From: Streptacidiphilus rugosus AM-16
GTDB lineage: Bacteria; Actinomycetota; Actinomycetes; Streptomycetales; Streptomycetaceae
NCBI RefSeq assembly: GCF_000744655.1
Contig: NZ_JQMJ01000004.1
Span: 3,534,001 to 3,598,000 of the forward strand
Reading direction: 5' to 3'
Length of the DNA stretch: 64,000 bases
The notes beneath the pieces were generated by a model that saw nothing but the letters and a program-made list of their open reading frames with translations, ran no database searches and was not told where the DNA came from. Shown piece after piece: positions 17,729 to 29,065 of this stretch. The translations under genes were made by a program, and so were the position numbers. The number at the start of each line of letters is the position of its first letter. Position 1 is the stretch's first letter.

Positions 17729-18274
17729 CTACACGGCGGAATCGTCCTCCTCGGCGAAGATCTCGCGCGCGGCCTGCTGCAGACGCGCCCACTTGCGAAG
17801 TTCCGCGCGGCGGCGCTCCGGTGAGTCATCACCGGTGCCCCGCTTGAAGATCAGCACCGCCGCCGTGTCCTCGCCCGTGGGGAGGTCGATCACGTCCGAG
17901 TCGACGGTGCGCCCGCGCAACAGCGCGTCGATCGCCCGCTCGGACAAGCCGGCCGCCAGCTCGCCGCGGATCACGTTGACCGCCAGCTGGCGCGGTGAGT
18001 TGGTCGGACGCGCACCGTCGCCCGCATCAGGCTCGGTCTTGATCGGCTCTCCGCCGGCGAGCACGCGCTCGATCGACTCGGGGGCCCAGCCGTAGTACGT
18101 GGCCGCGAGGCGCTGGAGGGCGGCCACCTTGGCCCAGTCCGCGCTCTCGCGCTCAAGCTTCTGCACCGACGATCGGCTCACGCCAAGAGCTTCGGCGAGG
18201 TCGTCTTGCGACATGCCGGCGACCCTTCGCTCCTTGGCGAAGGTGCGCGCGAGATGCGCCCAGTCCAGGTCCAT
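17729..18274 (-). CDS. XRE-family HTH protein, probable prophage repressor
   Basis: 181 aa. An XRE helix-turn-helix occupies about residues 6-65 (ERRVAGMSQDDLAEALGVSR, then SVQKLERESADW). The C-terminal half has no LexA-like autopeptidase signature. It is transcribed leftward, divergent from the early genes, which is where an immunity repressor sits. The first ATG (18298) lacks a good ribosome site; the ATG at 18274, nine codons later, follows GAGG and is preferred. It likely binds the 18270-18500 interval. Confidence 0.75.
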   Translation of the reverse strand: MDLDWAHLARTFAKERRVAGMSQDDLAEALGVSRSSVQKLERESADWAKVAALQRLAATYYGWAPESIERVLAGGEPIKTEPDAGDGARPTNSPRQLAVNVIRGELAAGLSERAIDALLRGRTVDSDVIDLPTGEDTAAVLIFKRGTGDDSPERRRAELRKWARLQQAAREIFAEEDDSAV

Positions 18275-18301
18275 GCACTCATCATGCCTCAAATCCATGC
18301 A
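18270..18301. promoter_or_regulatory. Phased CATGC repeats, candidate repressor operators
   Basis: CATGC occurs at 18272, 18283 and 18296 (spacings 11 and 13 bp), with TCCATGCA repeated exactly at 18270 and 18294; another CATGC lies at 18385. They overlap the repressor start, which suggests autoregulation. This is a reading of the pattern, not a match to a known operator. Confidence 0.35.
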
Positions 18302-20092: not shown

Positions 20093-20542
20093 ATGTTCGG
20101 GAGCAAGACAGACCGGATCAACGACCTGACCGAGCGATGCGACGACCTGCTGGAGGACCTGGAGACTGCCCGCAAGAGGGCCCGCACCTGGGAATTCAAC
20201 TACAAGCGGCTGTTGCGGCGCGTCGAGGCGCTGGAGTCGGAGAACGCCGTCCAGGCCTCGAAGCTCGCCGCGGTGCAGCCCCCGCCTCCCCCGGTCCGTG
20301 AGCGGGTGCGGCTGACGAAGGACTTCGACGTCTCCGGCGCGAACGTCCGCCGACGGGACGAGCCCGTTGACCAGGGCGACGAGCTGGCCCGGGCCCGGGC
20401 GCACGCCGCCCGGCTCGAGGAGCGCCTGGCCGAGCTGCAGGCCGCGAACGAGTCCGCCTACGCCGAGCTCGCCCGGCGCGCCGGCACCGCACCGTCGCCG
20501 GACGCGGCCGCCGCCGACGAGGCCCTGGCGGCGACCGCATGA
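20093..20542 (+). CDS. Coiled-coil protein of unknown function
   Basis: 149 aa. Two coiled-coil segments (about 6-58 and 95-130) flank a Pro-rich linker. The start ATG has CTGGAGG. No catalytic motif; possibly a structural or DNA-associated accessory. ATGA overlap with the next gene. Confidence 0.6.
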   Translation: MFGSKTDRINDLTERCDDLLEDLETARKRARTWEFNYKRLLRRVEALESENAVQASKLAAVQPPPPPVRERVRLTKDFDVSGANVRRRDEPVDQGDELARARAHAARLEERLAELQAANESAYAELARRAGTAPSPDAAAADEALAATA

Positions 20543-20790
20543 ACCCGGACGTCTACGGCGTCGGCGCGGCCGCGGTCGGCTTCGGTCTGCCGTGCCTCCT
20601 CGCGGTCTGCCGGACGCTGCACCGCCGTCCCACCAGCCAGTCCCGCGGGGAGCTCTCGCCGGGCCCCGTGGTGACCCGCTTCCGGGCCTGCCCCAACTGC
20701 CGCCGCACCCAGGCGTGCTCCGTGCACCGCGACGGCTCCTTCACCTGCCTCACCTGCATGACCACCGAGCGAGCAAGGACGAACCGATGA
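20539..20790 (+). CDS. Small membrane-anchored zinc-ribbon-like protein
   Basis: 83 aa. A short hydrophobic N-terminal stretch (GVGAAAVGFGLPCLLAVC) is followed by a Cys-rich module CPNC-x7-C and CLTC that looks like a zinc ribbon. Overlaps both neighbours by ATGA. Function not recognised. Confidence 0.55.
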   Translation: MNPDVYGVGAAAVGFGLPCLLAVCRTLHRRPTSQSRGELSPGPVVTRFRACPNCRRTQACSVHRDGSFTCLTCMTTERARTNR

Positions 20791-21092
20791 ACCGAGAGAA
20801 GCTCATCAGGATTCTGGCGAAGGACGCACGGATCGGCGGCCCGCACCAGGCCGCGGCCGCGCTCGCCGCGATCGAGGAGGCCATCGGCGGCGAGCTGCAG
20901 CGCGGCCGCCCCGTCTGTCTGGACCGCTTCGGGACCTTCGCCACCGTGCTGCGCACGACGGACGCCCCGTCGGCCGAGGTCGGCAAGCCGGGCCCGCCGC
21001 GCGTGCACAAGGTCCCGATCTTCCGCGCCGCGACCGAGCTCCGCTCGCGCGTCAACGGCATCGCCCCGACGGCCGAGCAGAGAACCGCGTGA
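20787..21092 (+). CDS. HU-like DNA-binding protein
   Basis: 101 aa. The N-terminal two helices (MNREKLIRILAKDARIGGPH, QAAAALAAIEEAIGGELQRG) and the strand VCLDRFGTFATV correspond to the HU/IHF fold, where the equivalent is V-x-L-x-GFGTF. The DNA-contacting arm (around RVHKVPIF) is degenerate. It could bend or compact phage DNA or assist replication at the origin about 1.4 kb downstream. ATGA/GTGA overlaps on both sides. Confidence 0.65.
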   Translation: MNREKLIRILAKDARIGGPHQAAAALAAIEEAIGGELQRGRPVCLDRFGTFATVLRTTDAPSAEVGKPGPPRVHKVPIFRAATELRSRVNGIAPTAEQRTA

Positions 21093-21463: not shown

Positions 21464-21529
21464 CGTCCGGGCACCGGAAGCGCACCACACCGACACCCCG
21501 CCATCCATCCCGCCAGGAAGCAGAACCTG

Positions 21530-21973
21530 ATGACCACGACCAACTACCAGCCCGCACCGCCCAGCCCGGAGCGCCTCGATCAGATCCGCGAGGCCCTCGC
21601 CCGGCTCGCCAACCCCGACGTCGCCTTCGCTCGGCCGCACACCTGGGCCGCGATGCTCCGCGACACCATGGCCGGCCTCGACCAGCTCACCGCCCAGCTC
21701 GCCGCCGACCGGCCCGCGTACCGGCTCCTGGTCGGTGACATCTCCTGCGGCTACTACGCCGCCCTCGAAGCCGCCCAGGAACACGCCATGGACGTCGCCA
21801 CCACGGCGGAAGGCCTGCCGCTCAAGGATCCGCACTGGGTGCCCGAGAGCGGCGAGGAAGACGCCGCCCAGGAGCTGTGCCACGTCGACGGTCACATGGA
21901 CTCCGTCGGTACGGGCTACCGGATCCGGCCGGTCACCATCCACGCCGCATACGACCCCGCCGCCGCGTGGTGA
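21530..21973 (+). CDS. Early-region protein of unknown function
   Basis: 147 aa. Helical N-terminal half (SPERLDQIREALARLANPDV, WAAMLRDTMAGLDQLTAQL), acidic C-terminal half with CHVDGHMDSVGTGYR. ATG with a weak purine-rich leader (AGGAAGCAG). It precedes the replication-initiator-like gene by 63 nt. No family recognised. Confidence 0.6.
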   Translation: MTTTNYQPAPPSPERLDQIREALARLANPDVAFARPHTWAAMLRDTMAGLDQLTAQLAADRPAYRLLVGDISCGYYAALEAAQEHAMDVATTAEGLPLKDPHWVPESGEEDAAQELCHVDGHMDSVGTGYRIRPVTIHAAYDPAAAW

Positions 21974-22036
21974 GCGCGTTACCGCGGCCGCCGCCGCGCC
22001 CCGCACCAACTCCGCACCAGGGAAGGCCTTTCGCTC

Positions 22037-22909
22037 TTGTCCGGCTCACCCGACTCCGCCCGCACCGAGAGTGTCCGCAACGCCTGGACCCGCATGCTGC
22101 GCAACGAGATCATCCGCACCGGCGACAAGGCCGTCGCCAGGATCGCTCACGTCGGCGTGTGGCTCGCGACCTACGGCAACGCTGACGGGAGCAACTGCCT
22201 CCCTCACACGGACACTCTGGTCACGCTGACCGGCACCTCTGAGGAGACCGTCGGCCGCGCGCTCCGGGTCCTCCGCACCCTCGGACTCATCACAGGGAAG
22301 CGCCGGCCGAACGACACCACCGTCTACCAGCTACACATGCCCATCGGCGGCCAGGTCGACTGGCAACCCCATCTCCACCTCTTCACCGAGACGCGACAGA
22401 AACGGGCCTGGGCCAAGCGCAAGCAGGCCGAGATCGCCCAGCACCTCGACGCTCGGAACCCGTCCACGGACGGACTCCGGAACCCGTCCGCATCGGGGGT
22501 TCCGGAACCCGTCCGCAGTGGGGGTACCAACCCGCCGGTAACCGACCCGAAAGAGCCCCGGAACCCGTCCGTGGACGGGTACGGAACCCGTCCACGGACG
22601 GACTCCGGAACCCGTCCGCATCGGGGGGGAGACAGTTACCTACCTACCTCCGGTAGGTACACCCCCTCTTCTGACCCGGAGATGGCTGATCACTCACCTC
22701 AGCCACAGGCCGCGCGCGAGAGCCCGCCGCGAAGAGCAATTCAGCCGCCGCTCATGACGTCCGTGCCGACCGCGGCCCTGCGGGAACCGGACACCCCCGA
22801 TGCACCCGCCGGAGGCCTGGCCGAGTTCCTGCGCGCCAGGGCGGCCGAGCATGACCGGCTCGGTGTCCGCCCGCCCCTACCTGAACGAGAACGGAGGCCC
22901 GCGTCGTGA
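22037..22909 (+). CDS. Winged-helix replication-initiator-like protein with internal iterons
   Basis: 290 aa. Residues about 15-105 form a winged HTH (ARIAHVGVWLATYG...LTGTSEETVGRALRVLRTLG, then GKRRPNDTTVYQL), as in O/DnaD-like phage replication initiators. The middle (about 140-205) is low complexity because the DNA there is a repeat array, and the C-terminus is Pro-rich. In lambdoid phages the origin lies inside gene O; the same layout is proposed here. TTG start at 22037 with GGGAAGG upstream; GTGA overlap with the next gene. Confidence 0.65.
   Translation: MSGSPDSARTESVRNAWTRMLRNEIIRTGDKAVARIAHVGVWLATYGNADGSNCLPHTDTLVTLTGTSEETVGRALRVLRTLGLITGKRRPNDTTVYQLHMPIGGQVDWQPHLHLFTETRQKRAWAKRKQAEIAQHLDARNPSTDGLRNPSASGVPEPVRSGGTNPPVTDPKEPRNPSVDGYGTRPRTDSGTRPHRGGDSYLPTSGRYTPSSDPEMADHSPQPQAARESPPRRAIQPPLMTSVPTAALREPDTPDAPAGGLAEFLRARAAEHDRLGVRPPLPERERRPAS
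22454..22627. repeat. Iteron-like array, candidate phage replication origin
   Basis: GGAACCCGTCC occurs six times, at 22455, 22479, 22504, 22560, 22583 and 22607 (spacings 24, 25, 56, 23, 24). A 46-bp block is exactly repeated (22454-22499 and 22582-22627). The two blocks are offset by 128 bp, so the enclosing gene reads them in different frames (RNPSTDG versus GTRPRTDSG). Conservation at the DNA level, not the protein level, argues for protein-binding sites. Confidence 0.7.
22641..22659. promoter_or_regulatory. Inverted repeat beside the iteron array
   Basis: TACCTACC-TCC-GGTAGGTA is a perfect 8-bp inverted repeat just after the last iteron, in a locally less GC-rich stretch. It could be part of the origin (unwinding or binding element). 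Confidence 0.4.
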
Positions 22910-23226
22910 CGATCTCCCGCTACGGGCTCGGCGTCTGCGGCCAGTGCGGCCAGCAAATCCGCTGGAGTCTCACCGAGGCCGGCAAACGCCAGCCCCTGGA
23001 CCCCGAACCGAACAGCGAGGGCAACACCGTCGCGCGGCTCTCGTCGACCAGGACGTGGCTGTCGCGCGTCCCGACGGCCGAGCTCCCGCAGATGAGCTAT
23101 GAGCGGCGCTTCATGCCCCACGCGGCGACCTGCCGGGGCCTCAAGCCCGTGCAGCCGCCGCTGGTGAACCTGCCCAGCAACGTCACCCAGCTCGCCCACC
23201 GTCGCGGCCGCGGCGGCCGACGGTGA
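22906..23226 (+). CDS. Small CxxC protein of unknown function
   Basis: 106 aa. It starts with a CGQCGQQIRW zinc-knuckle-like motif and has a basic C-terminal tail (RRGRGGRR), suggesting nucleic-acid contact. GTGA overlap upstream and GTGA overlap downstream indicate tight coupling with the initiator gene. Confidence 0.6.
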   Translation: MTISRYGLGVCGQCGQQIRWSLTEAGKRQPLDPEPNSEGNTVARLSSTRTWLSRVPTAELPQMSYERRFMPHAATCRGLKPVQPPLVNLPSNVTQLAHRRGRGGRR

Positions 23227-23411
23227 TCCGCCTCGACTTCGACCTGCCCGACCTGGACGCGGCCGCCGACCTCGTCGACGTCCTGCAGAACGCCGCCGGC
23301 GTCGCCGACCGCCGCAACCGCCAGGAACGCGCCGCCCTCTGGCGCCGCCTGGCCGCCAGCATCACCGACGGAATCGACACCCTCGACCAGCTCTACACAC
23401 ACCCGGAGTAG
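23223..23411 (+). CDS. Small helical protein of unknown function
   Basis: 62 aa, acidic N-terminus (LDFDLPDLDAAADLVDVL) and amphipathic helices. GTG start overlapping the previous stop. Function not recognised. Confidence 0.5.
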   Translation: MIRLDFDLPDLDAAADLVDVLQNAAGVADRRNRQERAALWRRLAASITDGIDTLDQLYTHPE

Positions 23412-23415
23412 GCCC

Positions 23416-23769
23416 ATGCTGATCCGACTCCTCGCCCTGGCCGCCGTCGCGGTGGCCTGTATCGCCCTTGTCCGGCGCGCCCGACGCTTCAGCGGCTACC
23501 CGGCCGCCCCGGACCCCTACGAGGCCGCTGACGACGCCACAGACGATCTCGGCGAGCCCGCCGAGCAGCGGGTCGACGTCCCCGAGCCCAGCGCGCCGCC
23601 GCCCGCGGCCGCCGTCGGTCCGAGGCGCACGCTTCCCCGCCGGCTGCGCAGTGTGCCGATCCAGTTCCCGCCGCACGTCGACCCGCCGCTGACCGATGAG
23701 CAGCTGGCCGTCGTCCGCGCGCGCTGGCCGCTGCTCGTCAGCCTCCTCCTCCGCGACGACGCGAACTGA
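23416..23769 (+). CDS. Small single-pass membrane protein
   Basis: 117 aa. One N-terminal hydrophobic segment (LIRLLALAAVAVACIALV) followed by a Pro/Ala-rich and acidic domain. Starts 4 nt after the previous stop. Role unknown. Confidence 0.55.
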   Translation: MLIRLLALAAVAVACIALVRRARRFSGYPAAPDPYEAADDATDDLGEPAEQRVDVPEPSAPPPAAAVGPRRTLPRRLRSVPIQFPPHVDPPLTDEQLAVVRARWPLLVSLLLRDDAN

Positions 23770-23795: not shown

Positions 23796-24014
23796 ATGCC
23801 GACCGAATCGCCTGTGAAACCCACCGTCAGCCCCACCGAGCTCGCCGTCCTCCAGCTGGTGGCCGAGGGCCAGAAAAACCACCTGATCGGCGCCGCCCTC
23901 GGCCTCTCGCCGCTCACCGTCAAGACCCACCTGGCCAACATCGGCCGCAAGCTCGGCACCGGCAACCGCGCCGGCATGGTCGGCGTCGCGTTCCGCCGCG
24001 GCCTCATCCGCTGA
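23796..24014 (+). CDS. Stand-alone LuxR/GerE-type HTH protein
   Basis: 72 aa consisting almost entirely of a GerE DNA-binding domain: SPTELAVLQLVAEGQKNHLI, then LGLSPLTVKTHLANIGRKLG. There is no sensory domain. It may regulate phage or host promoters. ATG with CAGGAG upstream. Confidence 0.75.
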   Translation: MPTESPVKPTVSPTELAVLQLVAEGQKNHLIGAALGLSPLTVKTHLANIGRKLGTGNRAGMVGVAFRRGLIR

Positions 24015-28348: not shown

Positions 28349-29065
28349 GTGACTGCCTGGACCCTGCACCAAGCCGACGCACTCACCACGCTCACCGCGC
28401 TCCCCAGCGGCAGCGTCGACGCCACCATCACCGACCCGCCCTACAACAGCGGCGGCCGCACCCCCAACGACCGCACCGGCGCCAGCGCCCGCGACAAGTA
28501 CGTCAGCGGCGACGCCAAGCACCAACTGCCCGACTTCGCCGGCGAAAGCCGCGACCAGCGCGGCTACCTCGCCTGGATGACCCTCATCCTCACCCAGTGC
28601 CTCCGCGCAACCACCACCGGCGGACCGCTGCTCCTGTTCACCGACTGGCGCCAGCTCAACGTCAACTCCGACGCCCTGCAGGCCGCCGGCTGGATCTGGC
28701 GCGGCGTCGTCCCCTGGAACAAGCCCATCGCCCGCCCCACCCCCGGCGGATTCCGCCGCTCCTGCGAGTACATCCTCTGGGCCAGCAACGGCCCCGTCGA
28801 CGCCACTCGCAACCCGATCTACCTGCCCGGCCTGTTCACCTGCAGCCAGCCACGCGGCAACCAGCGCCACCACATCACCCAGAAGCCCGACGAGCTGATG
28901 GACGAGCTGGTGAAGATCTGCGCCCCGGGCGGCACCGTGCTCGACCCGTTCGCTGGATCCGGCTCAACCGGGGTAGCAGCGCTGCGGTCTGGGCGCGCGT
29001 TCGTCGGCATGGAGATCACTGAGCAGTATGCCGCTGTCGCCCGTGCGCGCCTCGGCGCTGCGTAA
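28349..29065 (+). CDS. DNA adenine methyltransferase (beta-class)
   Basis: 238 aa. Motif IV TDPPYNSGG lies near residue 28 and motif I DPFAGSGSTG near 203. The catalytic-before-SAM order defines the beta class. DPPY points to N6-adenine, though N4-cytosine cannot be excluded. No cognate restriction enzyme is adjacent, so it is an orphan enzyme, probably protecting phage DNA from host restriction. The GTG start has GAGGGGACG upstream. Target sequence not predictable. Confidence 0.9.
   Translation: MTAWTLHQADALTTLTALPSGSVDATITDPPYNSGGRTPNDRTGASARDKYVSGDAKHQLPDFAGESRDQRGYLAWMTLILTQCLRATTTGGPLLLFTDWRQLNVNSDALQAAGWIWRGVVPWNKPIARPTPGGFRRSCEYILWASNGPVDATRNPIYLPGLFTCSQPRGNQRHHITQKPDELMDELVKICAPGGTVLDPFAGSGSTGVAALRSGRAFVGMEITEQYAAVARARLGAA

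Follow-up and report, generated by a model that had tools for sequence, protein, structure and literature searches.

A candidate prophage replication origin inside the gene for its own initiator

Why should an exact DNA repeat lie inside a phage gene and be translated in two different reading frames? The question is raised by a 46-bp block in the window, that is, the whole 64-kb stretch of Streptacidiphilus rugosus AM-16 DNA analysed here, in which both copies of the block fall inside a single ORF, in frames 0 and +2 (Table 1). The original prediction had taken this region for a phage origin embedded in a replication gene and bound by the HTH protein which that gene encodes. The exact repeat on which it was built was recovered letter for letter (22454-22499 equals 22582-22627), and so was the 128-bp offset; because this start-to-start distance is no multiple of three, the first copy reads as RNPSTDGLRNPSA and the second as GTRPRTDSGTRPH. 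The prediction had further counted six iterons about 24 bp apart. The count stood, since the 11-mer GGAACCCGTCC occurs exactly six times, at the iteron starts listed in Table 1, and the spacing stood except at one place, the successive distances being 24, 25, 56, 23 and 24 bp. The 11-mer was absent from the rest of the window, and dinucleotide-preserving shuffles of the window yielded it 0.09 times on average and once at most, versus the six copies observed. When synonymous codons were redrawn with the peptide held fixed (5000 trials), no 11-mer exceeded three copies, again versus six. No second copy of the array could be found when the whole host genome (9 Mb) was searched with it.

Judging by its profile matches, the ORF carrying the array encodes a prophage replication initiator of the O-like/DnaD-like winged-helix type. 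It matched replication initiation, O-like and DnaD-like families in PHROGs (E 1e-6 to 1e-4), the homology to O-like initiators (E 4e-6 and 1e-4) being confined to the N-terminal part, and it matched Pfam HTH_36 above the cut-off; no match to Pfam RepA_N was listed for it. The AlphaFold2 model of residues 1-140 had a mean pLDDT of 90 and placed the HTH helices at residues 58-65 and 69-81. Foldseek/VIA-align comparison with the PDB gave generic winged-helix matches and no decisive homologue. The C-terminal tail is highly divergent among relatives, and no helicase loader could be recognized beside the initiator gene.

The same window carries large terminase, head protease, major head and tape-measure genes (PHROGs), and in IMG/VR the element is a 35,590-base viral contig, with ends computed at about 17.4 and 53.0 kb of the window. 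Other genes of the element include an HTH_3 repressor-like protein at its left edge (17729-18298, minus strand), a stand-alone LuxR/GerE-type HTH protein of 72 aa (23796-24014, plus strand) and an ORF (28349-29065, plus strand) whose matches to models of CcrM-like adenine DNA methyltransferases stay below the cut-off. About 1 kb upstream of the initiator, the C-terminal 90 residues of the product of 20367-21089 (plus strand) match HU/IHF (PF00216), and about 140 further residues make up the rest of this fusion; in other systems, proteins of the HU/IHF type help origins to open.

Table 1. Features of the initiator gene and of the candidate origin, in window coordinates
Feature	Position	Strand	Basis
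Putative replication initiator ORF, 290 aa, TTG start, O-like/DnaD-like winged-helix	22037..22909	+	PHROGs, Pfam
Predicted N-terminal winged-helix DNA-binding domain, residues 1-140	22037..22456	+	AlphaFold2; codon-like constraint
Thr58 codon, candidate specificity column	22208..22210	+	Column/base agreement 40/40
Iteron 1, full dyad GGAACCCGTCCACGGACGG	22455..22473	+	GGAACCCGTCC count; dyad analysis
Iteron 2, half dyad and constant CGGGGG arm	22479..22499	+	GGAACCCGTCC count; architecture in relatives
Iteron 3, half dyad and GGGGG arm	22504..22524	+	GGAACCCGTCC count; architecture in relatives
Iteron 4, full dyad ACCCGTCC-GT-GGACGGGT, arms paired 8/8	22560..22579	+	Dyad analysis
Iteron 5, full dyad	22583..22601	+	GGAACCCGTCC count; dyad analysis
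Iteron 6, half dyad and CGGGGG arm	22607..22627	+	GGAACCCGTCC count; end spacings in relatives
Lowest-GC stretch of the gene (58-60%), candidate unwinding element	22625..22699		GC scan
Triloop hairpin TACCTACC-TCC-GGTAGGTA, candidate unwinding or priming structure	22641..22659		Pairing kept in relatives
Conserved DNA GGCTGA...CTCAGCCACAGG..GCGCGCG	22684..22718		Relatives; all three codon positions evenly conserved

Searches of genomes and viral contigs provided about 40 distinct relatives of the initiator, nearly all in Streptomyces/Kitasatospora-type prophages and most of them about 40-57% identical to it across the N-terminal domain. Collections of sequenced phages and plasmids held almost none: tblastn with the initiator protein gave no match there at 1e-5, and a relative surfaced only at E 9e-3. 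A first peptide scan of genome contigs also returned no match to the initiator. Two of the relatives are domain-identical to loci in Kitasatospora sp. MBT63 and Streptomyces scopuliridis, which were reached via the conserved downstream motif as a DNA probe; two further matches to this probe came without an initiator gene and were taken as chance.

Almost all relatives carry 6-8 repeats at the same place, just after the winged helix, with the array starting about 390-600 nt into the match. The letters of the repeat vary by lineage (GGACAGCGTCC, GGAACCCGTCC, GGACAGTGTCC, GGAAGGCGTCC, GGAAGTCGTCC, GGAACCCGTTCC, GAACACCCGTCG) and the architecture is kept. Two relatives keep the initiator protein and have lost all (L049) or most (L011) of the iterons, and no replacement array was found within 8 kb in L049; these are possibly defective prophages, or their origins have moved elsewhere. 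Among more distant actinobacterial viral contigs (L052-L057), analogous arrays with unrelated dyads could be recognized by eye. L121 belongs with them, again with dyads of quite different letters; several contigs of this group have DnaA-box-like sites, and a common ACGCAAC(C/T)CAC...GCGCGCGA-like element lies downstream.

The claim that selection acts on the DNA was borne out by these relatives, in which the three codon positions are evenly conserved across the array. Identity at codon positions 1/2/3 was 0.859/0.912/0.682 in the HTH domain, a normal coding signature, versus 0.864/0.850/0.846 in the array, where the codon-position bias is gone, and 0.843/0.859/0.879 in the 100 bp after it; these values come from 41 related pairs that are mutually non-independent, with the contrast visible within nearly every pair. 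Iteron copies occupy two to three reading frames in 32 of 32 arrays. A peptide conserved beyond its DNA in homologues, named in advance as evidence to the contrary, is not what the relatives show.

Gaps between adjacent iterons fall into classes of 22-26, 32-34, 44-47 and 56 bp, which are separated by about one helical turn, with only 20 and 36 bp as outliers. A circular statistic over all gaps peaked at 10.5 bp (R 0.836); the long gaps alone gave a best period nearer 12, and their R of 0.78 at 10.5 bp was reached in 0 of 20,000 random draws. Half or more of the gaps are no multiple of three; codon phase is thus ignored and helical phase kept. The last two gaps of the array, 23 and 24 bp, are nearly invariant. 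The first two of the last three copies are usually dyads, and the last is as a rule a half dyad, with a near-constant CGGGGG behind it that closes other half copies too. Dyad arms matched at 7.2 of 8 positions within their own locus, and at 4.0 of 8 when crossed between loci with a different left arm; the two arms thus seem to change together.

Directly after the last iteron, mean GC in 32 relatives reaches a minimum of 0.573, versus about 0.70 nearby, in the 25 bp beginning 25 bp past the start of the last iteron motif. This stretch is weakly AT-rich and, in absolute terms, not AT-rich. The hairpin with its three-base loop sits in the low-GC stretch, 22625-22699 in the window; all of the 26 distinct sequences keep Watson-Crick pairing at pairs 1-6, and five of these pairs show compensatory changes (examples are L010, with CCCCCC-TGC-GGGGGG, L023 and L051). 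Farther on, CTCAGCCACAGG followed by GCGCGCG is found mostly 53 bp past the hairpin. In 12 relatives the array contains or borders DnaA-box-like sites (TTNTCCACA); no DnaA box was found in the window array. An Rfam search of 21500-23500 gave chance-level matches only, under gathering scores. GC-skew, which had been proposed as a check, is almost uniformly negative across the prophage and does not change sign at the array, and it lends the origin no support.

The protein alignment was also compared with the repeat letters of the relatives. At the sixth base of GGAcaGcGTCC, all 27 relatives with G have Arg aligned with Thr58, whereas the 13 relatives with C or T have T, Q, V, A, P, G or N there and never Arg, so that this column agrees in 40 of 40 and is the only perfect one. 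Residue 58 opens the first HTH helix in the AlphaFold2 model and falls at 'tRQEIGQIVGCSRETV' in the CRP profile match; contacts between Arg and guanine are standard in base recognition. On a tree from which the Thr58 column had been left out, each trait needs four changes and only 3-4 independent changes are supported, and since the labels agree in every row, a single set of branches can account for both the residue and the base changes. In this residue-base state, L008 departs from its close relatives L006/L033, and L005 from L007/L034/L012. A formal independent-pairs sign test had only three pairs, so its p of 0.25 is non-significant by itself, and both the residue column and the base coding were picked post hoc, after the data had been seen. 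The coupling between residue 58 and the iteron base is therefore strongly suggested by the alignments, short of proof.

Taken as a whole, these sequence comparisons make it very probable, in line with the original prediction, that a temperate phage starts its replication at this array, within the gene for the initiator itself. The initiator coding sequence contains the repeats, which form several phased dyad iterons, candidate binding sites. This reading rests on an initiator-type gene, an array placed alike in almost all relatives, DNA-level constraint and phased gaps, and equally on matched dyad arms, the Arg/G coincidence, the GC dip, the covarying hairpin and the DnaA-box-like sites of relatives. 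The flat sign of the GC-skew, the weak AT-richness, the window array free of a DnaA box, and L049 and L011 count against it, as do the failure to identify a helicase loader beside the gene and the small number of independent changes on the tree.

The same array could be an operator at which a regulator binds its own gene to control early transcription, by autoregulation or as a roadblock. The winged-helix fold is indeed common to MarR/Fur/CRP-type regulators, and the residue-base coupling would fit any DNA-binding role equally well, but the array lies about 420 bp into the gene rather than at a promoter, the PHROGs matches are to replication initiators, and a low-GC hairpin region at fixed spacing just past the array suits an origin better, which leaves the operator improbable. 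A site for partition (centromere-like) or packaging (pac) that came to lie in the initiator gene by chance is very improbable: although phased dyad clusters are known at centromere-like sites too, the large terminase gene is about 8 kb off, at 30.4 kb, no partition protein was found among the genes tested, and the array always follows the initiator, with a base that covaries with an initiator residue.

It may also be asked whether a repetitive, low-complexity tail is selected as protein, with recent duplication leaving the DNA repeats as a side effect. We give this hardly any credence: in its favor, the 46-bp copies are exact and the tail looks disordered and is rich in Pro, Arg and Ser, yet the copies are read in different frames, the third codon position is as conserved as the others, synonymous redraws never reproduced the array, and the iteron gaps often break the triplet phase.

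The analogy with lambda-type origins drawn in the original prediction has its counterpart in the literature, as oriλ occupies a central position within gene O, where λ has four iterons and related lambdoid phages six; these are bound by the initiator and adjoin an AT-rich stretch (PMC7466680; PMC6022878). The window locus resembles oriλ in its repeats in mid initiator gene; the stretch beside them is a local GC minimum, though not AT-rich in absolute terms. It differs in that the iterons of its family are GC-rich, lineage-specific dyads and half-dyads with a near-constant CGGGGG arm, in its helically quantised gaps and conserved triloop hairpin in the candidate unwinding region, and in that no partner corresponding to the P protein was identified for its initiator. 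In the RepA_N plasmid pSK41, the origin is central in rep, the protein sequence encoded there is dispensable, and the N-terminal domain of Rep resembles DnaD (PMC5703833). Since oriλ lies in gene O and the pSK41 origin in rep, the principle of an embedded origin is already established. The initiator family resembles the RepA N-domain structures 4pql/4pt7 weakly (Z 7.6; profile E 0.006, at which RepA_N 4pql was tied with CRP), a similarity common to many winged-helix proteins, and the window system lies in a prophage whose actinobacterial host is GC-rich. A distant relative (38% over 68 aa) is the replication initiation protein gene of phage C72C1 (OQ984150), within which 24-bp tandem units TGACACAGTTGTGTCA-GGGGGTAC combine a dyad with the GGGGGTAC arm; it differs in its unrelated dyad letters and in that only two to three units were seen.

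The literature searched, which covered few subscription papers, yielded no account of an origin of this type in Streptomyces phages, and to our knowledge the lineage, helical spacing classes, near-constant GGGGG arm, triloop hairpin and residue-base rule are undescribed in that literature. The origins of temperate actinobacterial phages are, as far as we know, poorly described.

Initiator dimers would occupy the dyads of such an origin, and the fixed helical phase would stack them into one wrapped complex, so that the adjacent low-GC hairpin region could open. The host replicative helicase and primase would be loaded at the opened region, directly or through the variable C-terminal tail, which may, as a guess, carry helicase/primase recruitment. 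The peptide encoded by the array would be a spacer that the protein tolerates. A single DNA stretch would then have two jobs, with the DNA role outweighing the codon meaning.

On balance, we slightly favor the further possibility that these are naturally orthogonal phage origins, in which residue 58, Arg or not, sets one base per iteron and the rest is held fixed, namely the helical phase, the 23/24-bp end spacing, the near-constant GGGGG arm and the triloop hairpin. The residue-base rule is exact and testable, and about 40 natural experiments are at hand on how specificity shifts jointly in an initiator and its several binding sites. If this is true, a protein and its 6-8 sites, all in one gene, would switch specificity jointly, giving many mutually incompatible recognition codes on a shared scaffold, and the initiator family could supply mutually compatible replicons for Streptomyces.
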